IMG/VR virus record: IMGVR_UViG_3300008267_000094
Location: 1 to 45,314 of that record
DNA: 45,314 nt
Source: a virus
Reading direction: 5' to 3' (one strand)
Shown: positions 2,232 through 29,609 of the stretch, in pieces
Numbering within the stretch: the first letter of the stretch is position 1
Layout: every line of letters begins with the position of its first letter
The notes under the pieces: model-generated
What the model was told of the DNA's origin: nothing
Seen by the model: only the letters and a program-made list of their open reading frames with translations
The model's database searches: none
Translations under genes and position numbers: made by a program

Positions 2232-5084
2232 ATGGCAAATTCAAATAGAGTTTTTGTATCTCCGGGTGTGTACACATCTGAAAAAGACTTAACATTCGTA
2301 GCACAAAGTGTTGGGGTGAGCACGTTAGGTTTGGTGGGTGAAACCTTAAAAGGTCCCGCTTTCGAACCAGTATTAATAACAAGTTTTGACGAATTTAGGT
2401 CATATTTTGGTGGAACTAGTCCATTGAAAGATGGGAATAACAACCCAAGATATGAATTACCTTACTTCGCAAAATCTTATTTAGAAGAATCTAATCAATT
2501 ATTTGTTACAAGAATTTTGGGTTTAACAGGATACAAACCTGTTAAAACATTTGGTGTACAAACAATAGGTGGGGTAACACTTGGTACTTTAAGTGGAACA
2601 ACAACTGGTTTAACCATGTCAGCAACCACTACCACAATTACCGCAAGTACAATTTATAGTGAATTGTCAGATAAAATATCGGTAGATGGTAACTATATTA
2701 CTGATTATATAGTTTCTAATTTTAGTGGTAACACTTCATCAAATCATGGACAATGGTTTGTGTTAGGTAATGTACCATCTTCTGGTACCACATCTCTAAC
2801 ATCAACAATTGAAGAGGTATCTCCATTAACCGGTTTGGATAACGCAAGTAATAATAATACTAAAGAATGGTACAATGTATTGTGTAACACAGCGGGTACA
2901 CAAGTATATTCTTATTTGTTTGTATACAATAGTGGAACAACAACTTTTGATGTTACTAAATACACATATAACGGAACACTAAACACCCAATATGATGGAC
3001 AAGTTGTGTTGGCTTTTAGGTCAAGAGGTTCTTATGTTGGACAAACATTAAATTTAGAAACCACAACTAACAGTAATTTCCAAATTACAGGTACAGGAAT
3101 AACAACAAATCCTTTAGCAGAATTTACTGTTAATGTTACAGGTGCAACAAGTGGGGCTAAATCATACACTTGTAGTATGGATACTTCTTCATCAAAATAT
3201 GTAACTAAAGTATTCGGTACTGATGTATATGATAAATTGAAAAGTGAGGTTCCAATTTATGTGTACGAAACATATCCTAACTATCTATTAAGAGCATACG
3301 AACAAGGTTACATTAGAGGTTTAAGTTTAACTGAGGTATATGAAACCGAAAACAATAACTTCTTAACTTCTTGGGACACACCTATGACACCTACAGTTGT
3401 ATCTGAGGTTAGAGGTGGTGAGGTTTCTGATTTGTTTGATGTAATTACAGTTTCAGATGGTGAAACGGCGAACTACGAAGTTAAAGTTTCAATTATCAAC
3501 ATTAATATTGATACCGCTGAATTTGATTTAATTGTACGTGATTTTAACGATACTGACGATAATTTAGTAGTACTTGAAAAATTCTCAAGATGTTCAATGA
3601 ACCCTGACCTACCTGGATATGTGGCCAAAAAAGTTGGTACATCAGATGGTGAGTATGAATTACGTTCAAGATACATCATGTTGTCTATGACGGATAATCA
3701 CCCAACCGACGCATATCCCGCAGGTTTTAAGGGTTACACAAATAATACATCTTTTGGTTCCAACACGATTGGTTCTGTAATGTATAAAACACAATATTAT
3801 ACAGCTGGAAACACAACAGGATATCAAGCGGACGGTACTCCTATATTATCATCAGGTGATAAAGTTAGAAGAACCTACTTTGGATTATCATCGTTGTCTA
3901 ATCAAGTAACATACGACAGAGATTTATTTAAGTTTAAAGGAACATCTGCGGCTGGAACGACTAAAGGTTTCCACTTATCAACAAACGCATCCACATTAAC
4001 AGGTACAACCTTCTTGACAACATCTTATGATTTAGAAGGACAAACAGGTACCGATAACGTGTTAACCAACATTAACTACCGTAAATTCACATTCGCGGCT
4101 TGTGGTGGTTTTGATGGTTGGGACATTTATAGAAACGTAAGAACGTATGGTGATGGTTATATCTTTGGTAAAACAACCTATACAAGTGGTAACACAAATA
4201 ATGGTGGTGTCTTTAGCACTGTATCAGGTAATTCTGATTACTACGCATACACAAGAGGTATCGACACCTTCGCAAACCCTGAGGCTGTTGACGTAAACAT
4301 TTTCGCAACACCTGGTATAAACTTCTATGACCACAGTTCACTTACATCATACGCAATTGATATGATTGAGGAAGATAGAGCAGACTCTTTGTATGTAATA
4401 TCTTCACCAAACTACAGTTCATCAGATGAAATAATAGACGCATTGGACGGTGTTGCAATCGATAGTAACTATTCGGCAACATACTGGCCTTGGATACAAG
4501 TTAGAGACGCAGATAATTCAACTCAATTGTACTTACCACCTACCGGTGAAGTTTTAAGAAATATCGCGTTAACCGATAATGTATCTTTCCCATGGTTCGC
4601 TGTAGCGGGTTATTCAAGAGGTTTGGTTAACTCAATTAAGGCTTATAAGAAATTAACCCTTGATGAAAGAGACGACCTGTACAAGGCTAGAATTAACCCA
4701 ATTGCAACATTTGCTGACACCGGTACAATCATTTGGGGTAATAAAACCCTACAGGTTCGTGAATCGGCTTTGGATAGAATTAACGTAAGAAGATTACTAT
4801 TGAGAGCAAGAAAATTGATTTCAGCAGTGGCGGTAAGATTACTATTTGAACAAAACGACGACCAAGTTCGTAACGAGTTCTTGAGATTGGTAAACCCAAT
4901 ATTAGACGCAATCAAGAGAGAAAGAGGTTTGTATGAATTCCGTGTAACGGTTTCAAACGACCCTGAGGACATTGACGCAAATACTTTAAGAGGTAAAATC
5001 TATATTAAACCAACAAGAGCTCTTGAATTCATCGATGTTGAGTTCATAATCACACCAACAGGAGCATCATTTGATAATATCTAA
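2232..5084 (+). CDS. 18: Contractile tail sheath protein (gp18-like)
   Basis: This 950-residue protein forms the contractile sheath around the tail tube. The N-terminus (VFVSPGVYTSEKDLT, then a GLVGETLKGPAFEP segment) and the C-terminal 200 residues (FPWFAVAGYSRG, an INPIATFADTGTIIWGNKTL stretch, the long RRLLLRARKLISAVAVRLLF helix region and an IKPTRALEFIDVEFIITPTG end) are typical of T4-type sheath proteins. It is about 290 residues longer than T4 gp18. Much of the extra length lies at about residues 115-330, a Thr/Ser/Gly-rich stretch that is probably an outward-facing insertion. It has its own late promoter-like octamer and a strong terminator directly after it, so it is probably expressed as a single-gene unit at a high level, as suits the most abundant tail protein. 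Confidence 0.93.
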   Translation: MANSNRVFVSPGVYTSEKDLTFVAQSVGVSTLGLVGETLKGPAFEPVLITSFDEFRSYFGGTSPLKDGNNNPRYELPYFAKSYLEESNQLFVTRILGLTGYKPVKTFGVQTIGGVTLGTLSGTTTGLTMSATTTTITASTIYSELSDKISVDGNYITDYIVSNFSGNTSSNHGQWFVLGNVPSSGTTSLTSTIEEVSPLTGLDNASNNNTKEWYNVLCNTAGTQVYSYLFVYNSGTTTFDVTKYTYNGTLNTQYDGQVVLAFRSRGSYVGQTLNLETTTNSNFQITGTGITTNPLAEFTVNVTGATSGAKSYTCSMDTSSSKYVTKVFGTDVYDKLKSEVPIYVYETYPNYLLRAYEQGYIRGLSLTEVYETENNNFLTSWDTPMTPTVVSEVRGGEVSDLFDVITVSDGETANYEVKVSIININIDTAEFDLIVRDFNDTDDNLVVLEKFSRCSMNPDLPGYVAKKVGTSDGEYELRSRYIMLSMTDNHPTDAYPAGFKGYTNNTSFGSNTIGSVMYKTQYYTAGNTTGYQADGTPILSSGDKVRRTYFGLSSLSNQVTYDRDLFKFKGTSAAGTTKGFHLSTNASTLTGTTFLTTSYDLEGQTGTDNVLTNINYRKFTFAACGGFDGWDIYRNVRTYGDGYIFGKTTYTSGNTNNGGVFSTVSGNSDYYAYTRGIDTFANPEAVDVNIFATPGINFYDHSSLTSYAIDMIEEDRADSLYVISSPNYSSSDEIIDALDGVAIDSNYSATYWPWIQVRDADNSTQLYLPPTGEVLRNIALTDNVSFPWFAVAGYSRGLVNSIKAYKKLTLDERDDLYKARINPIATFADTGTIIWGNKTLQVRESALDRINVRRLLLRARKLISAVAVRLLFEQNDDQVRNEFLRLVNPILDAIKRERGLYEFRVTVSNDPEDIDANTLRGKIYIKPTRALEFIDVEFIITPTGASFDNI

Positions 5085-5085
5085 T

Positions 5086-5116
5086 AAAAAGGGGGAGGGG
5101 AAACCCTCCCTATTTT
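5086..5116 (+). terminator. Strong rho-independent terminator after the sheath gene
   Basis: A 7-bp perfect GC stem (GGGAGGG 5093-5099, CCCTCCC 5104-5110) with a GAAA loop begins a few bases after the sheath stop codon and is followed by TATTTT. Confidence 0.85.
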
Positions 5117-5134
5117 ATGTTCCACGTGGAACAT
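5117..5134. promoter_or_regulatory. Perfect parS-like centromere palindrome
   Basis: The sequence ATGTTCCACGTGGAACAT is a perfect 18-bp palindrome. Its 16-bp core TGTTCCACGTGGAACA (5118-5133) matches the widely conserved bacterial chromosomal parS site, which binds ParB (consensus TGTTNCACGTGAAACA and its fully symmetric forms). It lies just after the sheath terminator, in a gap without a clear gene. A zero-loop palindrome is a poor RNA hairpin, so a DNA-binding site is the better reading. No parA or parB gene is present in the window, so host ParB, or a phage ParB encoded elsewhere, would be the ligand. Confidence 0.7.
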
Positions 5135-5192
5135 GATGAATAAAAGTATAAAAAATATAAAATTATAAATTACCCAGTATATGCACCAGTAT

Positions 5193-5260
5193 TCTAGTTC
5201 TAGTTATCTTAATTCTAGTTTATCTAATCTAGTTTTATATTTACTAGCATCTAGTACTAG
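5193..5260. repeat. Cluster of seven CTAG sites with TCTAGTT repeats
   Basis: CTAG occurs at 5194, 5200, 5215, 5229, 5244, 5251 and 5257, seven times in 67 bp. The first four copies sit in the repeated heptamer TCTAGTT, and the last two lie in a near-palindromic stretch. The 300-bp gap between the sheath and tube genes otherwise holds the terminator, the parS-like site and the tube promoter. The array looks like a set of protein-binding repeats, but its function is unknown. Confidence 0.6.
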
Positions 5261-5334
5261 TATGGAAAAAATACGAAAAAAATTTGATATAATCAAGTGA
5301 TTGAGAATAATTTTTTGTTTTTTCATATACAACA

Positions 5335-5342
5335 TATTTATA
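5335..5342 (+). promoter_or_regulatory. Late promoter-like octamer TATTTATA before the tube gene
   Basis: TATTTATA followed by GG lies 41 nt before the ATG of the tube gene, with an A-rich leader in between. It has the longest leader of the set, followed closely by the sheath gene. Confidence 0.55.
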
Positions 5343-5383: not shown

Positions 5384-5872
5384 ATGGCAGATTTATTAAT
5401 GAAAATGCCGGTTCCATACGAACCGAAAAGAGTTAACCGATTCATACTTAGATTCCCTTCATCTTTGGGTATTAATGAATGGTATGTAACCTCAAGTGCT
5501 AGACCAAGTGCAAAAATTAATTCAGTTGCGATTCCCTTTATCAATACATCAACATATGTTGCTGGTAGATTTGAATGGAACGAAATAAGAGTAACATTCA
5601 AAGACCCGATTGGTCCATCTGCAGCACAGGCTTTGATGGAGTGGTTCCGTTTACACGCGGAATCTGTTACAGGTCGTATGGGTTACGCAGCTGGATATAA
5701 AAAAGACATTGAATTAGAAATGTTAGACCCAACGGGGGTTGTGGTTGAAAAATGGATTCTTCAAGGTACTTTTATTACCGACTTAAACTTTAACGAACTT
5801 GATTACTCAAGAGATGATATAGCATCAATTACTTGTTCGTTAAGAATGGATAGATGTATTTTAGTTTACTAA
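5384..5872 (+). CDS. 19: Tail tube protein (gp19-like)
   Basis: This 162-residue protein polymerises into the inner tube through which DNA passes. Its length is almost identical to T4 gp19 (163 residues). It shows the expected features: an N-terminal RVNRFILRFPSSLGI strand, a central WNEIRVTFKDPIGPSA segment, and an AQALMEWFRLHAESVTGRMG helix, followed by an EKWILQGTFITDLNF beta region. It follows the sheath as in T4 and is bounded by its own late promoter-like site and a downstream hairpin terminator, so it is a single-gene transcription unit. Confidence 0.92.
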   Translation: MADLLMKMPVPYEPKRVNRFILRFPSSLGINEWYVTSSARPSAKINSVAIPFINTSTYVAGRFEWNEIRVTFKDPIGPSAAQALMEWFRLHAESVTGRMGYAAGYKKDIELEMLDPTGVVVEKWILQGTFITDLNFNELDYSRDDIASITCSLRMDRCILVY

Positions 5873-21370: not shown

Positions 21371-22228
21371 ATGTCAACAATTGAATCAGTACTGGCACAG
21401 TACGAAAAAAACAAACAAGCCGCAAGCGGCAGCAGTAACAAAGTCTCTCAAGAAGAGAGAATGAAGAAGTATTTCACCACCGTTCTACCCAAAGGTGCTC
21501 GAAGTGGTGAAAAAAGAATTCGAATCCTACCATCCAAAGATGGTGGAAGTCCATTTGTGGAAGTTTACTTTCACGAGGTTCAGGTAGATGGTAATTGGGT
21601 TAAATTACATGACCCTAAGCAAGACGGAAAACGTTCTCCTTTAAATGAGGTTTACGAAGGTCTTATGATGACAGGTGACGAACAAGATAAAGTTTTGGCT
21701 CGTCAGTACCGCTCACGTAAATTTTACATTGTAAAAGTTATCGACAGAGAAAATGAACAAGATGGTGTAAAATTTTGGAGATTTAAACACAATACAAAAA
21801 GTGAAGGTGTTTTAGATAAAATTTATCCTTTATTTAAAAACAAAGGTGACATTACCGACCCTTCAAAAGGTAGAGATTTGATTATTAACCTTAATCTAAG
21901 TAAAGCAGGTAACGGTAGAGAGTATACAACAATTACTTCTATTATCCCCGAAGACCAATCTCAACTACACACCGACAACGACATCGCTAACTCTTGGTTA
22001 GTAGATGAATTGGTATGGTCTGATGTATATTCTAGAAAACCAGAAGAATATCTGGAAATGGTTGCTAAAGGTGAAGTTCCAAGATGGGACACAACAACAG
22101 GTAAATACGTTTCAAATTCAACAGAAGAGTTTGAAATGTCTAAACCAAGTACACCTGTTAAGACATCATCAGTTCCTGAGTTTGACCCACAAGAAGAAGC
22201 CGAAGGAGACGACGATTTACCATTCTAA
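21371..22228 (+). CDS. 32: Single-stranded DNA-binding protein (gp32-like)
   Basis: This 285-residue protein coats single-stranded DNA during replication and recombination. It has the gp32 layout. A Lys/Ser-rich N-terminus with KNKQAASGSSNK may correspond to the cooperativity region. An OB-fold core follows, with RIRILPSKDGGSPFVEVYFHE and KVIDRENEQDGVKFWRFKHN. A flexible acidic tail ends EGDDDLPF. The length is close to T4 gp32 (301 residues). The Cys/His zinc ligands of T4 gp32 are not visible in the core. The last six residues, DDDLPF, resemble the tip of bacterial SSB (DDDIPF), which recruits repair and replication partners. The gene heads the replication block, with its own promoter and a terminator on each side, so it is probably made at a high level as a single unit. 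Confidence 0.85.
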   Translation: MSTIESVLAQYEKNKQAASGSSNKVSQEERMKKYFTTVLPKGARSGEKRIRILPSKDGGSPFVEVYFHEVQVDGNWVKLHDPKQDGKRSPLNEVYEGLMMTGDEQDKVLARQYRSRKFYIVKVIDRENEQDGVKFWRFKHNTKSEGVLDKIYPLFKNKGDITDPSKGRDLIINLNLSKAGNGREYTTITSIIPEDQSQLHTDNDIANSWLVDELVWSDVYSRKPEEYLEMVAKGEVPRWDTTTGKYVSNSTEEFEMSKPSTPVKTSSVPEFDPQEEAEGDDDLPF

Positions 22229-22235
22229 TCAATAC

Positions 22236-22279
22236 GAGCATGGGCATGTGTATTAACATAATGTCCATGCTCTTTTTTT
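22236..22279 (+). terminator. Rho-independent terminator after the ssDNA-binding protein gene
   Basis: A 12-bp stem including one G-U pair (GAGCATGGGCAT 22236-22247, ATGTCCATGCTC 22261-22272) with a 13-nt loop is followed by seven T residues. Downstream genes probably depend on read-through or a promoter I could not identify. Confidence 0.88.
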
Positions 22280-22299
22280 AAAAAAATTATTAAAATACA

Positions 22300-23298
22300 A
22301 TGGCAATCAAGAAAAAAGAATTCGATTATATATCTAAATTTTCAACCAAGACAAAATACAAGGACGAAAATTTTTATTACTGTGGAGAAGCGTTTAACAA
22401 CGCGTGTGGTTTACCGGGTCCTGTCATGGGAAATATTAATATGTTTTTGGGACACACAAACTCCTCAAAAACAACCGCAATGATTTTAGCGGCAGTTGAT
22501 GCTCAAAGAAAAGGACATTTACCTGTTTTAATTATTACCGAAAGAAAATGGAAATGGGAACATGCTTTGGAGTTAGGTTTCCAAGCCGAAAAAGATGCAA
22601 ATGGGGAATGGGTTGGAGATTTTATTTTCAATGATTCTTTTGAATACATAGAACAAGCGACTGATTTCATAAATGAAATTATCGACGCACACGAAAAAGG
22701 TGATATTCCGAGAAACATTTTATTTTGTTGGGATTCAATTGGTTCTATTCCTTGTAAAATGACATTTGATGGTAAAGGTGGTAAACAACACAACGCAAGT
22801 GTCCTGTCTGATAAAATCGGTATGGGTATCCACGCAAGAATAACCAAATCTAAAAAAGAGGATTATCCAACAAAAGAAAACCCATATTATATAACTATGG
22901 TTGTTGTAAATCAACCATGGGTGGAATTACCCGACAATCCTTTTGGTCAACCCGAAATTAAAGCTAAGGGTGGTGAAGCTCTTTGGTTGGCATCCGCGTT
23001 AGTATTCTTGTTTGGTAATCAAAAGAAATCAGGTATTAACCACATAGACGCCGTCAAAGATGGGAGAAAAATCGCATATGCGGTCAGAACTAAAATATCA
23101 ATCCTAAAAAATCACGTAAATGGATTGGGATACAAAGATGGTAAGGTTATAGTTGTTCACAATGGTTACATTGCCGACACCAAAGAATCGTTGGAAACTT
23201 ACAAAAAAGATTACTCAAGTTTTTGGAGAGATAAGTTAGGTGTTAGCGAATTTGATTTATCAGAATCAACAACATACGATTACGAAGAAGAAGATTAA
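22300..23298 (+). CDS. uvsX: UvsX-like RecA-family recombinase
   Basis: This 332-residue ATPase would form filaments on single-stranded DNA and drive strand exchange for recombination-dependent replication. Walker A is GHTNSSKT (residues 51-58), Glu81 in TERKWKWE is a candidate catalytic acid, Walker B is NILFCWDS (139-146), and a VVNQPW segment at 202-207 lies near the L2/NTP-sensing region. KAKGGEAL (221-228) matches the Gly-Gly segment after L2 in UvsX. The Walker A differs from the T4 form, having SSK before the Thr. The C-terminus is acidic (EEED). The gene lies between the ssDNA-binding protein and a FEN-type nuclease in a replication block. T4 UvsX works with gp32, which is encoded directly upstream here. 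Confidence 0.85.
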   Translation: MAIKKKEFDYISKFSTKTKYKDENFYYCGEAFNNACGLPGPVMGNINMFLGHTNSSKTTAMILAAVDAQRKGHLPVLIITERKWKWEHALELGFQAEKDANGEWVGDFIFNDSFEYIEQATDFINEIIDAHEKGDIPRNILFCWDSIGSIPCKMTFDGKGGKQHNASVLSDKIGMGIHARITKSKKEDYPTKENPYYITMVVVNQPWVELPDNPFGQPEIKAKGGEALWLASALVFLFGNQKKSGINHIDAVKDGRKIAYAVRTKISILKNHVNGLGYKDGKVIVVHNGYIADTKESLETYKKDYSSFWRDKLGVSEFDLSESTTYDYEEED

Positions 23299-23329
23299 TA
23301 TTTGTTTAACCCTATAAGAGTGATGATTA

Positions 23330-24352
23330 ATGTCTAATGTATTATTAGTTGATGGTGACAATTTACTTACAATTGGTTTTTTTGGCTTAAAAAATCACTT
23401 TTATAAGGGAGAACATATTGGTGGAATTTACCATTTTATCAATACCCTAAGGAGAACAATTGAAATTCATCATTTGGATAAGATTGTTGTTTTTTGGGAT
23501 GGTCAAGACGGTTCTATTACAAGAAAAAAGTTTTACCACCAATATAAAGAAAATAGAAAATCTAGAATTAGGTCAGAAGAGGAATTACACTCTTATGGCA
23601 AACAAAGGAACCGAATTAAACAGTACTTAGAAGAATTGTTTGTTAGACAGGGTGAGTATGAATTTTGTGAATCCGATGACTCCATTGCATACTACGTTCA
23701 AAATTCACATAAAGAAAACAAAATAATTTTTTCTTCGGATGGTGACCTAACTCAGTTAGTTTCAGAAAACACCAAATTATACAATCCTTCCCACAGTAAG
23801 ATTTATCAACCAAATGACATGTTTGTTTACGACCATGAACAAATTCTTATTGAGAATATAAAATTGGTAAAGATGATTTGTGGTGACCCATCAGATAACA
23901 TTGCGGGCATTAAAAACTTAGGAGTTAGACGACTCATATCAATGGTACCCGAGATTAAAACACAACAAATAACGATTGATTTTATACTTGAAAGGTTTAA
24001 TAATCTTTTTGAAGAAGACAATGATAACCGATTGGTAAAAAATCTTTTAACTGGTGTGACAAAATATGGAATACTTGGTGAAGAGTTTTTTGATGTTAAT
24101 AGTCGTATTGTTAGTTTGGACAATCCATTTCTAACTGACGATGCTAAAGAATCTATTAATTCATTAATAAATGATTTGATTGACCCTGAAGGTCGTTCAT
24201 ATAAAAACACGATGAAGATGATGATGGAAGATGGTATATTTTTACTTCTACCAAAATCAGATGACGCGTGGATAAATTTCCTCAACCCATTTTTAAGATT
24301 AACAAGAAAAGAAAAAAATAAAAAATTAATTAAAATTAGAAACAATGAGTAA
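23330..24352 (+). CDS. rnh: FEN-family 5'-3' nuclease / RNase H (T4 Rnh-like)
   Basis: This 340-residue nuclease probably removes RNA primers and 5' flaps during lagging-strand synthesis. Metal-binding acids are visible at Asp8 and Asp10 (LVDGD), Asp57 (FWDGQD), Glu114, Asp116 and Asp117 (ESDD), and Asp137 and Asp139 (SSDGDL). The helix-three-turn-helix signature CGDPSDNIAGIKNLG follows at 184-198. This is the order found in T4 RNase H (305 residues) and FEN/PIN nucleases generally. The C-terminal 100 residues are less conserved and end in a very basic tail (RKEKNKKLIKIRNN). It overlaps the next gene by 8 nt. Context with UvsX and a DnaB-like helicase fits a replisome role. Confidence 0.88.
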   Translation: MSNVLLVDGDNLLTIGFFGLKNHFYKGEHIGGIYHFINTLRRTIEIHHLDKIVVFWDGQDGSITRKKFYHQYKENRKSRIRSEEELHSYGKQRNRIKQYLEELFVRQGEYEFCESDDSIAYYVQNSHKENKIIFSSDGDLTQLVSENTKLYNPSHSKIYQPNDMFVYDHEQILIENIKLVKMICGDPSDNIAGIKNLGVRRLISMVPEIKTQQITIDFILERFNNLFEEDNDNRLVKNLLTGVTKYGILGEEFFDVNSRIVSLDNPFLTDDAKESINSLINDLIDPEGRSYKNTMKMMMEDGIFLLLPKSDDAWINFLNPFLRLTRKEKNKKLIKIRNNE

Positions 24353-24788
24353 TCAAGAAGTAACAAAGTTTGAGTTCCTTTTGACTTTAGAAGGTAACAT
24401 TATCTGCCAACGTTTCTTTAACGTAAGGGAACATAACCCAAAGTCGCGACGTTCAATGGATTTACACTACTATGTAAAAAATATTTGTGACGATATTTGT
24501 AGTGATTTGAAAACAAAAACATTGGATTATCTACACGAAAATCGTGATTATTTTTACGGTTTAGACGCTGCAGAAACCGAAGAACAAAACGATAAAGAGT
24601 ATTTTTTACTTGAAATTAAGATGGGTGACGATGTATTTATTCAAAGGATGTTTCCCGCTAAAATCTTCCACCCAAAGGTAAGATATACGGTAGATATTCG
24701 CCCTTATTTGAAGAGATACTTGTCAGACCTTACTGACATTTTATCATCTACGAATTTGGAAACGACTTATTTAAATTATCAATTATAA
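24345..24788 (+). CDS. Unknown protein with internal duplication
   Basis: This 147-residue protein of unknown function appears to be an internal duplication. The first half (FEFLLTLEGNIICQRFFNVRE, then a DLHYYVKNICDDI helix) aligns by eye with the second half (YFLLEIKMGDDVFIQRMFPAK, then DIRPYLKRYLSDL). Each half would form two or three strands followed by a helix. A conserved QRxF occurs in both copies. The gene overlaps the nuclease gene by 8 nt and lies 15 nt before the helicase gene. That places it where T4-like phages often keep small replisome accessory genes such as the helicase loader (59) or gene 33-type factors. It has no clear similarity to those that I can see. Confidence 0.6.
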   Translation: MSNQEVTKFEFLLTLEGNIICQRFFNVREHNPKSRRSMDLHYYVKNICDDICSDLKTKTLDYLHENRDYFYGLDAAETEEQNDKEYFLLEIKMGDDVFIQRMFPAKIFHPKVRYTVDIRPYLKRYLSDLTDILSSTNLETTYLNYQL

Positions 24789-24803
24789 AAACTAAAAAAA
24801 ACT

Positions 24804-26180
24804 ATGTCAGAAAAAAATTTTGGATTTCTCGGAGCGTCATTTCAACAAACGTTAATTAAATCAATTATTGAAGATAAGAAATACGGTGAGCAAATTATTG
24901 ATGTAATCGAGAGCAAATATTTTGATAATAGTTCTTTTAGATTCATTACCGCTCACATCAAAGAATATCACCAAAAATATGGTAATATTCCCGATTATCA
25001 GACTCTGTGTCAAACAATCATTCTTGAATTAGGTTCTCAGGAATCCGCTAGAATTCATTTAGACACAATACACGATATCAAAGAAAACACCGATGATAAC
25101 CCAATGGTGAGAGAAGAAGCTCTTAATTTTTGTAAACAACAAAATTTAAAAAAAGAGTTGAAGATTGTTACCACCATTATCGACAACGGTAAGTTTCAGG
25201 AATATCATAAAATCGAGGGTATAATTCAAAAGGCACTACAAGTGGGATTACCACCTGAAGAGTGTATGGATGTTTTTCATAACATCGACGAAGCGTTGGA
25301 AAAGGATAACAGACAACCAATTCCAACAGGAATCGAAGGTCTTGATTCGGCATTGAAAGGCGGTTTAGGAATGGGAGAACTAGGTGTCGTATTAGCTCCA
25401 ACCGGTACTGGTAAAACAACGATTCTTTCATTGTTTGCAAACACTGCTTATCTTCATGGATACAATGTCCTTCAAATATTCTTTGAAGATAATCCTGATA
25501 ACATCAAGAAGAAACACTATACAATTTGGTCAGGTATTGCACCAGATGAACAACCCGAAAATAAAGATTTTGTTAAAGACAAAGTCACTCAAATACAATC
25601 TCAGAGTAAGGGTAGTTTAGATATTTTAAAATTACCTAGTGATTCGGTAACAATATCAGAGATAAAATCAAGATTAAGAAAAAGAATTTCAGAAGGTAAA
25701 AAGATTGATTTACTTGTAATTGATTACGTTGATTGTATCAGCCCTGATAAATCACAGTTTGGTGAAGAATGGAAAGGTGAGGGTTCTGTTATGAGAAGTT
25801 TAGAAGCGATGACAAGTGAATTTGGAATTGTTATATGGACAGCAACACAGGGTAACAGAGAATCGATATCATCTGAAGTTGTTAATAGTGACCAAATGGG
25901 TGGTTCAATTAAAAAGGCACAAATTGCTCACGTAATCCTATCAATAGGTAAAACAATAGAACAAAAAGAACACAATTTAGCCACAATGACTTTACTTAAA
26001 TCAAGAATAGGTCGAGACGGTATTATATGGCAAAACTGTAAGTTTGATAACAGACTCTTGGTTATTGATACCGAGTCTCAAACTACTCTCCTTGGACATA
26101 AGGAGGAGAAACAAAAGAACAATTCCGACAGAATCAAGGATGCGTTTATGAAAAGACAGGAAGTATTAAACAGAAATTAA
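24804..26180 (+). CDS. 41: Replicative DNA helicase (gp41 / DnaB-like)
   Basis: This 458-residue helicase would unwind DNA 5'-3' at the phage fork as a hexamer and interact with a primase. The N-terminal 160 residues are helical, as in DnaB and gp41. The RecA-like motor carries Walker [10 protein letters not shown] (198-206, Lys204), a catalytic Glu228 in FFEDN, Walker B LLVIDYVD (303-310) and a sensor segment TATQGNRES (346-354). The length is very close to T4 gp41 (475 residues). The C-terminus is Lys/Asn-rich and probably disordered. It sits 15 nt after the duplicated unknown gene and 14 nt before nrdB, so the replication and nucleotide genes form one operon. No primase lies in the window. 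Confidence 0.9.
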
Positions 26181-26194
26181 TAATTATTAACACC

Positions 26195-27172
26195 ATGACA
26201 GAAAAGATTTTGAAAGAAAATCCGGGACGTTTTGTCCTTTTTCCAATCGAACACCACGACATTTGGAAACTTTACAAACAACAAGAAGCGTGTTTTTGGA
26301 CCGCTGAAGAAATTGATTTGGCTCAAGACATTTATGATTGGGAAAACAAACTAAACGAGGATGAACAACATTTTGTTAAACACGTTTTAGCGTTTTTTGC
26401 TGCATCAGATGGTATTGTAAATGAAAACTTAGCAATGAATTTTGTTAATGAAGTTCAATACACCGAGGCAAAAATGTTTTATGGTTTTCAAATGATGATG
26501 GAAAATATACACAGTGAAACATATTCATTGTTGATTGATACCTACATTAAAGAAAGACAAGAACAAGATAAGTTATTTAATGCCATTGAAACCATACCGG
26601 CGATTAAAAAGAAGGCGGAATGGGCTATTAAATGGATTGGTTCGAAATCATTTGTTGAAAGATTAATCGCGTTTGCTGCTGTTGAGGGTATTTTCTTTTC
26701 TGGCTCATTTTGTTCCATTTTCTGGCTCAAAAAACGTGGTTTAATGCCAGGATTAACCTTCTCAAATGAGCTCATTTCAAGAGACGAAGGAATGCACTGT
26801 GATTTTGCCTGTCACTTATTTAATAATCACATTGAAAATAAAATAAGTGACAAAAAAATAAAAGAAATTATTTGTGGTGCATTAGAAATCGAAAAGGAAT
26901 TTATTTTAGAGGCGTTACCTGTAAAATTAATTGGTATGAATTCTGAATTAATGTCGCAGTACCTTGAATTTGTTGCCGATAGGTTATTAGTTTCATTGGG
27001 TTGTGGGAAAGTTTATAATTCAGAGAATCCATTTGATTTTATGCAGAATATTGCTCTCCAAGGTAAAACAAATTTTTTCGAAAAGAGAGTTGCTGAATAT
27101 CAAAAAGCGGGGGTAAATAATAACGTGTCTATTGAAGATATGGACACATCATTTGATGATATAGAATTTTGA
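26195..27172 (+). CDS. nrdB: Class I ribonucleotide reductase small subunit (NrdB), eukaryote-like
   Basis: This 325-residue subunit carries the diiron-tyrosyl radical that starts nucleotide reduction in NrdA. The metal ligands are all present: Asp41 (WTAEEID), Glu103 and His106 (MENIHSETY), Glu164 ([10 protein letters not shown]), Glu198 and His201 (RDEGMHCDF). The radical Tyr is Tyr110. Long stretches such as [17 protein letters not shown] and [18 protein letters not shown] are nearly those of animal R2, not of T4 or E. coli NrdB, so this is the eukaryote-like subtype that is also common in Bacteroidota. The C-terminus (DTSFDDIEF) fits the tail that docks on NrdA. It is followed 7 nt later by nrdA, the reverse of the usual A-B order. 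The enzyme would supply dNTPs for phage DNA. Confidence 0.95.
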
Positions 27173-27179
27173 TTAAACC

Positions 27180-29609
27180 ATGAAAGTAAAAAAGAGAGAT
27201 GGCTCATTGGAAGAAATGAGATACGACAAAATCACAAGAAGAATACAATTTTTTTGTGATGATTTAAATTTAGAGTACGTTGACCCAACATTAGTTACAT
27301 TAAAAGTAACTCAAGGAATATATGACGGTATCTCAACAACTGAGTTAGATGTATTAGCGGCTGAAACCGCCGCATCAATGGTTACCACCCATTCTGATTA
27401 TGCGAAATTAGCCGGTAGATTAGCAGTATCCAATTTACACAAAACAACACCAAAAAAGTTTTCACAATGTATTAAAGAATTACATTCTTTTACAGAACCA
27501 AAAACAGGTAAAGAATCATCTTTAATTGATGATGATGTTGCTAAGTTTGTCCATCAAAACAGAGAGGTTCTTGATGGGGCGATTAGACAAGAACGTGATT
27601 TGGATTTTGATTATTTTGGTTTTAAAACATTAGAACGTTCATATCTTTTAAAGATTGGTAAACGTATTGTTGAAAGACCTCAGTACATGTACATGAGAGT
27701 TGCTGTTGGTATTTGTAATGGTGATTTAGACATGGCATTAAGAATCTACGATGATTTATCACAACATTTCTATACACACGCAACCCCAACACTATTCAAT
27801 GCGGGAACTCGTAGACCACAGATGTCATCTTGTTTCTTAATTGGTAATAAGGGTGACGATATCGATGGTTTATTTGACACGATTAAAGATGTTGCGAAAA
27901 TTTCTAAATGGGCGGGAGGTATTGGTCTTCACGTTCACGATGTTAGAGCTAAAGGTTCGTACATAAAAGGAACTGGTGGTGAATCTGATGGTCTTCTACC
28001 TATGATGAAAACATATAATGAAGTTGCCAGATGGATTAATCAAGGAGGTAAAAGAAAAGGTTCTTTCGCAATATATCTCGAACCATGGCATTCCGATGTT
28101 TTTGAATTTATTGATTTAAGAAAAAATCATGGAAAAGAAGAACTGAGGGCTAGAGATTTATTCCTTGCCATGTGGACCCCAAGTTTATTCATGAAAAGAG
28201 TTGAGGAAGATGGTGATTGGTCACTATTTTCACCAGATGAAGCTCCCGGATTGTCCGATGTCTATGATGACCCGTTTGAATTTACTCAACAGTTTACGGA
28301 ATTGTACGAGAGATATGAAAAAGAGGGTAGAGCAAGAAGAGTTGTTAAAGCAAGAAAATTAATGGATGCAATTTTAACGGCTCAGATTGAAACCGGAACA
28401 CCTTATATGTTATACAAGGATGCCGCTAACTATAAGTCGAATCAAAAAAATTTAGGTACAATTAAATCATCGAATTTGTGTACCGAGATTATCGAGTATT
28501 CAAGTCCCGAAGAACAAGCGGTTTGTAATTTAGCATCTATTGCATTACCAAAGTATGTGTTAAATAAAGAGTTTAATCACGAACTACTCTATGAATACAC
28601 ATATCAAGTTGTTAAAAACCTAAACAACGTTATTGATTTGAATTTTTATCCCACAGAAGAGACAAAAAATTCAAACATGAAACACAGACCAGTTGGATTA
28701 GGTATTCAAGGTTTAGCTGACGTATTTTGTATGTTAAAATTACCTTTTGAAAGTGACGAGGCGGATAAACTTCAAACAGATATATTTGAAACAATTTACT
28801 TCGCAGCGTTAACGTCATCTAAAGATTTAGCTAAAGAAAATGGTGCGTATTCAACATTTGAAGGTTCACCTTTATCAAAAGGTATTTTTCAATATGAATT
28901 ATGGGGAAAATCTGACAAAGACACAAGTGGAAGATGGGATTGGAAATCTCTCAGAAAAGAGGTTGTTAAATTTGGTGTAAGAAATTCATTATTAGTTGCA
29001 CCTATGCCAACAGCATCTACCGCTCAAATACTCGGTAACAACGAAGCATTCGAACCTTTCACATCTAACTTATATTCGAGAAGAACGTTGGGTGGTGAGT
29101 TTATTGTTATTAACAAACATTTGGTAAATGAATTGTTGGAAAGAGGATTGTGGTCTGACGAATTAAAGAAAAAATTAATCATGGAAAACGGTTCAGTACA
29201 GAATATCCCCGAAATACCTGTTGAAGTAAAAGAAGTTTATAAAACAGTTTGGGAGATGTCTCAAAAAAGAATCTTATCAATGTCAGCAAACAGGTCGGTC
29301 TATATTGACCAATCACAGTCTTTAAATTTATTTATTGACAACGCGAGCAAACCAAAAGTTTTAGCAGCACACCTTTATGGGTGGAAACTTGGTTTAAAAA
29401 CAGGTATGTATTATCTGAGAACCAGAGCTGCTGTTGACCCATTAAAGGGTTTAGGTATTGACACCACAACAGTCAAACCTACGGTCGAAACAAAAGAAGT
29501 ACAAAGCACTTCACACAATCAACATATCAAAGAAGAAGAGGAAGTAGAAATGGTAATTTCATCAAGACCATCTGATTCTCCATTTGAATGTGAGGGTTGT
29601 GGTTCATGA
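27180..29609 (+). CDS. nrdA: Class I ribonucleotide reductase large subunit (NrdA), eukaryote-like
   Basis: This 809-residue subunit reduces ribonucleoside diphosphates to deoxy forms. An ATP-cone occupies about residues 1-90 (KKRDGSLEEMRYDKI), so allosteric control by ATP/dATP may be kept. The active-site cysteines are Cys218 (SSCFLIG), Cys434 in NLCTEI (the thiyl radical site) with Glu436, and Cys449 (AVCNLAS). The radical-transfer pair lies in GMYYLRTRAAVDP near residue 755. The C-terminal redox pair is Cys804/Cys807 (CEGCGS at the extreme end). The sequence is of the eukaryote-like type and matches its NrdB partner. It is the last gene of the replication block. Its stop codon is 2 nt before a structured RNA and about 90 nt before a terminator. 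Confidence 0.95.
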   Translation: MKVKKRDGSLEEMRYDKITRRIQFFCDDLNLEYVDPTLVTLKVTQGIYDGISTTELDVLAAETAASMVTTHSDYAKLAGRLAVSNLHKTTPKKFSQCIKELHSFTEPKTGKESSLIDDDVAKFVHQNREVLDGAIRQERDLDFDYFGFKTLERSYLLKIGKRIVERPQYMYMRVAVGICNGDLDMALRIYDDLSQHFYTHATPTLFNAGTRRPQMSSCFLIGNKGDDIDGLFDTIKDVAKISKWAGGIGLHVHDVRAKGSYIKGTGGESDGLLPMMKTYNEVARWINQGGKRKGSFAIYLEPWHSDVFEFIDLRKNHGKEELRARDLFLAMWTPSLFMKRVEEDGDWSLFSPDEAPGLSDVYDDPFEFTQQFTELYERYEKEGRARRVVKARKLMDAILTAQIETGTPYMLYKDAANYKSNQKNLGTIKSSNLCTEIIEYSSPEEQAVCNLASIALPKYVLNKEFNHELLYEYTYQVVKNLNNVIDLNFYPTEETKNSNMKHRPVGLGIQGLADVFCMLKLPFESDEADKLQTDIFETIYFAALTSSKDLAKENGAYSTFEGSPLSKGIFQYELWGKSDKDTSGRWDWKSLRKEVVKFGVRNSLLVAPMPTASTAQILGNNEAFEPFTSNLYSRRTLGGEFIVINKHLVNELLERGLWSDELKKKLIMENGSVQNIPEIPVEVKEVYKTVWEMSQKRILSMSANRSVYIDQSQSLNLFIDNASKPKVLAAHLYGWKLGLKTGMYYLRTRAAVDPLKGLGIDTTTVKPTVETKEVQSTSHNQHIKEEEEVEMVISSRPSDSPFECEGCGS

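Follow-up and report, generated by a model that had tools for sequence, protein, structure and literature searches.

Our results show that the 45-kb viral record analysed here over its whole length, hereafter the window, carries an 18-bp palindrome, ATGTTCCACGTGGAACAT, at positions 5117-5134 between the stop of the tail sheath gene (5084) and the start of the tail tube gene (5384), and that it is best read as a parS-type site with a family consensus that is exactly parS. Its core at 5118-5133 equals TGTTNCACGTGNAACA with no mismatches, the central CACGTG is intact, and this is the only mismatch-free match within the window. Base composition (GC 0.324) predicts 1.3e-4 exact matches to TGTTNCACGTGNAACA in the window, and with up to three mismatches allowed five places match against 2.97 expected. 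A preliminary description of this DNA had given the letters and coordinates of the palindrome, its match to the parS core, its improbability by chance and its intergenic place behind a terminator, and all of these were confirmed. That the dyad is kept by selection is the best reading of its history, because it is conserved against less conserved flanks. The features of the gap are collected in Table 1.

Table 1. Position of the palindrome and of neighbouring features in the window
Feature	Position	Strand	Remarks
Tail sheath gene	2232..5084	+	PHROG 23, E 7.3e-59
Intrinsic-terminator-like stem-loop 3' of sheath gene	5092..5111	+	T-rich tail reaches palindrome
parS-type 18-bp palindrome	5117..5134	.	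Core TGTTCCACGTGGAACA at 5118-5133; similar dyad in 78/99 distinct gaps
CTAG-repeat element beginning CCCAGTAT	5173..5266	.	Imperfect long inverted repeat
Conserved AAAATACGAAA ... TTGATATAATCAAG stretch	5268..5297	.	Adjoins CTAG repeats
ATATTTATA, late-promoter-like motif	5334..5342	+	50 bp before tail tube start
Tail tube gene	5384..5872	+	PHROG 4542, E 9.7e-25

Relatives were collected by four tail tube searches of viral contigs, taking the best 80 per search, and 236 loci were obtained among the matches listed. Together with the window these 237 sources gave 194 sheath-tube gaps, of which 99 were distinct; 28 sources were left out because no sheath end was recognised, 13 because the gap exceeded 450 bp and two because no tube start was recognised, and at least one of the long gaps (L165) has such a dyad. 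A dyad was called within four mismatches of TGTTYCACGTGRAACA (C/T and A/G at the variable positions), a level reached by 19 of 990 shuffled gaps. Among the matches listed, and with the window included, 78 of the 99 distinct gaps hold a dyad, and the best match in the other 21 has six or seven mismatches. Eight dyads are mismatch-free to TGTTYCACGTGRAACA and 70 differ from it at one to four positions, while the majority base in each column of the 34 distinct 16-mers gives exactly TGTTCCACGTGGAACA. Columns 2-15 of the core carry 1.0-3.3 bits, with the exception of column 10 (0.32 bit), and the columns flanking the dyad carry 0.01-0.99 bits, mostly below 0.5. The dyad starts 32-87 nt (median 55.5) 3' of the sheath stop and a median of 267 nt before the tube start, and a 310-kb relative (L041/L129) has the same 18-mer despite a different terminator and different flanks. 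The preliminary description had proposed a search for the site at the same place in related phages, and this is where it was found, with parS as the exact consensus.

On a tail tube tree of 96 rows (75 with the dyad and 21 without; three of the 99 gaps are absent because their tube sequence is short or duplicate), presence and absence of the dyad are explained by five changes and mismatch-free sites by three. Most simply, the dyad would be old and would have been lost a few times, a direction read from a tree without an outgroup. The strict, mismatch-free site occurs in five of the ten records searched, once in each, and three partial records from dyad-less clades (176, 92 and 75 kb) contain no match with fewer than two mismatches elsewhere. 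The sheath-tube region had no DNA match in 50,697 phage records; the nearest proteins in those records are distant and include proteins of Microcystis phage Mel-JY01, Flavobacterium phage immuto and an uncultured phage.

The term "perfect chromosomal parS", used in the preliminary description, holds for the window, whose site is exact, and for the consensus, but only eight of the 78 dyads have no mismatch, and relatives often have a changed centre, such as CACATG, CACGAG, CACAAG, CACGCG or CACGGG. An intact CACGTG core is considered important for parS (PMC4368675). The ParB of Pseudomonas aeruginosa binds all ten of its parS sites, with parS7-9, which have one intact arm, bound better than parS5 and parS6, and the natural parS5 and parS7-10 include TGTTCTACATGGAACA, TGTTCCACGAGGAACG and TGTTCCACAGGGAACA (PMC4368675), which the altered centres of the phages resemble. 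Like the weak and half-parS sites of P. aeruginosa, the phage dyads combine one intact GTTCCAC or GTTTCAC arm with an altered centre in the other arm, with the difference that the P. aeruginosa sites are chromosomal and belong to tested ParBs (PMC4368675, PMC7022226). Half-parS is bound by some ParBs, and nine of the ParBs analysed in the same work showed no half-site binding (PMC7022226). Given these natural weak and half-sites, the variable centre was dropped as an argument against parS altogether.

At least one intact GTTYCAC arm, which makes up a half-parS, is kept in 30 of the 34 distinct 16-mers, and loss of both arms is weakly avoided (Fisher p 0.06, with phylogeny ignored). In eight of the 78 dyad gaps and in none of the 21 others, further intact half-sites of the GTTCCAC and GTTTCAC types lie at -8 or at +26/+28 nt from the dyad start, compared with 2.4 (sd 1.6) expected over all 99 gaps, and the largest count in 300 shuffles was also eight. 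They lend modest support to parS, the eight gaps being related to each other. Clustering near partition genes or an origin was not seen, as there is one strict site and it lies in a tail gene gap.

The host is probably a member of the Bacteroidota, a view based on the NrdA matches of the window, the absence of a Shine-Dalgarno excess and the enrichment of TAnnTTTG. NrdA matched 42 of 50 genomes in a set chosen for holding the 18-mer; its best five matches are Bacteroidota at 59-61% identity (Flavobacterium, Flavobacteriaceae twice, Chitinophaga and Flavobacteriales) and the next best are two Bacteriovoracaceae at 56-57%, with weak or absent matches in nine of the 14 Bacteroidota of the set. 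In two large relatives, the sequences preceding 301 ORFs of 200 aa or more show no excess of Shine-Dalgarno motifs and an enrichment of TAnnTTTG (0.07 and 0.15 versus 0.03 and 0.04). Phage contigs binned in genomes were also considered as a clue to the host; relatives of the tube protein are encoded in none of the 23 stretches that matched a pattern.

On the host side, TGTTNCACGTGNAACA is present in 72 of 99 sampled Bacteroidota genomes, with one to five copies each that, among the matches listed, mostly lie within a few kb of each other; in two examined loci their neighbour is what we take to be an mnmG-like gene. A Flavobacterium locus (L273, 7017-7957) has a cluster of near-parS palindromes beside an mnmG-like gene, six of them spaced 116-118 bp, in which TGTTCCATGTGGAACA occurs four times and TGTTCCATGTAGAACA once, the latter in common with the phage relative L134. 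In a sample of 61 Bacteroidota genomes, sites with other centres, of the form TGTTCCACNNGGAAC, are scattered singles or pairs except for one Flavobacterium cluster, which counts against a plain parS reading of the altered dyads. Centre variants as a common habit of Bacteroidota chromosomes were rejected, since clusters of such sites, sought with C at the variable position, were seen in one of these 61 genomes. The window shares the identical 16-bp sequence with chromosomal Bacteroidota parS. However, the phage has one strict site in a late-gene gap, its relatives often have an altered centre, and in contrast to the chromosomal ParABS system the phage records searched gave no match to a ParA or ParB domain.

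The ParB_N domain (PF02195) was matched in none of ten records, which included that of the window and relatives of 288, 310 and 233 kb, and was matched in 10 of 14 control genomes. Likewise, HTH_ParB (PF17762) was matched in 0/13 records and 12/14 control genomes, and the ParA-type AAA_31 domain (PF13614) in 0/9 records and 14/14 control genomes. The window is one 45-kb record, for the remainder of which the 288-, 310- and 233-kb relatives stand in, and the records may be fragments. The observation that neither parA nor parB is in view extends, for ParB_N, from the window's record to the three large relatives; a search for parB in the rest of the phage genome had been recommended. A phage-encoded ParB as the partner of the dyad was rejected on the counts for PF02195 (0/10) and PF17762 (0/13), and the phages, having no ParB domain in the records searched, may borrow that of the host. 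An integrase domain was found in one of nine records.

The first account of the gap rightly included the palindrome and made no mention of a larger conserved element, the CTAG repeats; in the relatives of 288 and 310 kb no other place has five CTAG in less than 110 bp. In the window, 5173-5297 comprises this element from CCCAGTAT plus TTGAYANNRTCAAG and is conserved in the clade. In most relatives the ends of the element are CCCAGTAT-like and ACTGGG-like and it folds better than shuffled sequence, whereas the number of CTAG units varies, with a long array in L180. Covariation is weak, one of 15 pairs having a kept change on both sides among 15 sequences, and for this reason no claim is made for the element as an RNA; an origin, an enhancer or a structured RNA are possible. 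In an origin test, the GC skew of two large relatives largely tracks gene strand, and in the 310-kb relative a long plus-strand block begins close to the site. The CTAG element is also present in relatives without the dyad, and the dyad is therefore an accessory next to an element that is kept more widely.

The motif TATTTATA is found in the window at 288, 5335, 6857, 8837 and 32089, which is 11-49 bp before gene starts, and 17-18% of the long ORFs of two relatives have TATTTAT(A/T) in the 60 nt before them, versus 3-7% when shuffled. This motif, which precedes the tube gene and several others, is probably the late promoter of the clade. Elsewhere in the window (21371-29609), genes for a single-strand binding protein, a UvsX-like recombinase, an exonuclease, a DnaB-like helicase and both ribonucleotide reductase subunits lie amid tail and baseplate genes. 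The 288-kb relative has a region (L214-L215, about 105-125 kb of G001) with very long open reading, where 16.4 kb of ORF starts in one 5-kb bin, and with extreme C-over-G and A-over-T skew.

The 18-mer occurs in at least 120 stretches of viral contigs, compared with 0, 3 and 0 for three control palindromes, and the 120 stretches listed form 76 groups when sorted by their flanks. In 47 of the 76 group representatives no long ORF covers the site; 27 of the 120 stretches listed have two or more parS matches, and ParB_N was matched in two of 50 searched records drawn from them. This over-representation suggests that host-type parS occurs in viral contigs beyond one clade, and part of the excess may be host DNA contamination of viral collections. 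Three viral contigs (L029, L087 and L045) have five TGTTNCACGTGNAACA sites in the stretch examined, which look like a repeated regulatory site; those of L029 and L087 lie in gaps before genes, and ParB_N was not matched in the records of L029 and L045. In a viral group of 16 loci (L012, L019, L027, L030, L080 and others), 14 have two neighbouring sites, TGTTCCACGTGGAACA and TGTTTCACGTGAAACA, and L080 shows partial similarity to terminase genes of Pelagibacter phages. Two other viral groups that have the 18-mer were compared with named phages, which gave only partial similarity for one group and none for the other.

Our tentative proposal, which we consider possible but somewhat short of probable, is that the parS-type site recruits the ParB of a Bacteroidota host, with a mainly local effect at the sheath-tube junction. 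Chromosomal ParB slides from parS onto neighbouring DNA. In the phage, host ParB would load at the palindrome and slide onto adjacent phage DNA, and the ParB patch formed at the sheath-tube junction would silence, insulate or organise the late region and would be diluted as phage copy number outgrows the host ParB pool. A local main effect is favoured because the distance of the dyad from the sheath stop is always 32-87 nt and three records of dyad-less clades gave no sign of a dyad moved elsewhere. In P. aeruginosa, ParB at the intergenic parS3/4 represses neighbouring genes (PMC7022226). A bolder version seems distinctly unlikely: that in a widespread clade of Bacteroidota jumbo phages host ParB would be a copy-number-sensitive late-gene switch at a single stolen parS beside the unique CTAG element, keeping the region silent or insulated until replicated genomes dilute ParB, and that host-type parS in ParB-less phages would be general and undescribed.

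A serious and live rival, compatible with the parS reading since the two are not exclusive, is that some protein other than ParB binds the dyad as an operator or activator site of a phage promoter, and that the likeness of the dyad to parS is convergence. The dyad would then overlie the -35 region of a TATAA-type promoter that transcribes towards the CTAG element and the tube gene, a reading that as a whole we find rather doubtful. In 61 of the 78 dyad gaps the distance from GGAAC to the start of TATAA is 2-8 nt, and in 33 it is exactly 7 nt, a spacing that would place the dyad at about -34 to -19; shuffled sequence has TATAA within 14 nt in 10%. Moreover, the centre is the least conserved core part of the dyad, and one strict site per record would suit a dedicated operator. 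However, the family consensus is parS at every position, the window and L129 have no TATAA at that distance, TATAA occurs often in AT-rich DNA, the gaps are mutually related and no candidate regulator is known. The interpretation in the preliminary description is supported in part, as the dyad lies at the same place in relatives, but it did not consider the TATAA found within 14 nt after the dyad in 61/78 gaps.

Binding of host ParB could also serve a global role, such as partition or positioning of the phage genome, SMC loading or titration of host ParB, which we regard as unlikely. A single parS is enough for segregation in P. aeruginosa (PMC4368675), and the parS-like sites of SGI1 use and disturb a plasmid partition system (PMC10954446). 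The presence of the 18-mer in many viral contigs of differing flanks, in 76 flank groups among at least 120 stretches, and the lack of a ParB_N match in 48 of 50 searched records with the 18-mer also speak for such a role. But a global role would not need the sheath-tube junction, and yet the place of the dyad is fixed; the three partial records of dyad-less clades (176, 92 and 75 kb) have no match at fewer than two mismatches elsewhere, and an integrase in one of nine records gives little sign of a maintained low-copy state.

That the palindrome acts as RNA, as a second hairpin after the terminator (a back-up terminator or mRNA end), is very improbable. The palindrome of the window folds into a 9-bp hairpin immediately 3' of the terminator, 73 of the 78 dyad gaps have TTTT in the 40 nt preceding the dyad, and in many relatives the dyad is followed by a T-rich run. 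On the other hand, the consensus is parS, the conserved CAC is unnecessary for a stem, and the 21 changed arm pairs in the 34 distinct 16-mers comprise 11 broken, eight G-U and two double changes, so that pairing is not preferentially kept and the RNA hairpin was rejected. Rfam gave no match at the gathering threshold in the window, and the six matches obtained in the gap up to E 5 (best E 0.06) were all under the gathering scores of their families. A chance match or neutral remnant is scarcely credible: many windows were scanned, so that rare matches are expected, and 21/99 gaps have no dyad, but 78/99 gaps conserve it while their flanks vary, and five changes explain its presence and absence.

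The proposed recruitment of host ParB at a parS-type site has likenesses in known systems. The parS-like sites of SGI1 are likewise parS mimics on a mobile element that use the ParB of another replicon, but they mimic the parS of an IncC plasmid, in two copies, on an integrative element (PMC10954446), whereas here the site is of the host-chromosome type, in a clade of tailed phages with an integrase in 1/9 records. Phage-plasmids with ParABS (P1, N15 and Mic1) are likewise phages with a parS-like palindrome; these encode ParA/ParB (PMC7156551 for Mic1), while a ParB domain was found here in 0/10 and 0/13 records. A paper on jumbo phages was rejected as a parS precedent, the term in it being the name of a toxin domain and not parS (PMC11849849). 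Among the open-access papers listed, no description of a host-type parS in a lytic phage was found, in agreement with what had been stated at the outset.

Among the systems by which bacteria segregate their chromosomes, ParB-parS is a main one. If our proposal is true, infection by a clade of ParB-less phages with a conserved host-type parS would be tied to the segregation machinery of the host, and such a clade would offer a natural experiment on the effects of one parS away from the chromosome, be it silencing, SMC loading, positioning or titration.
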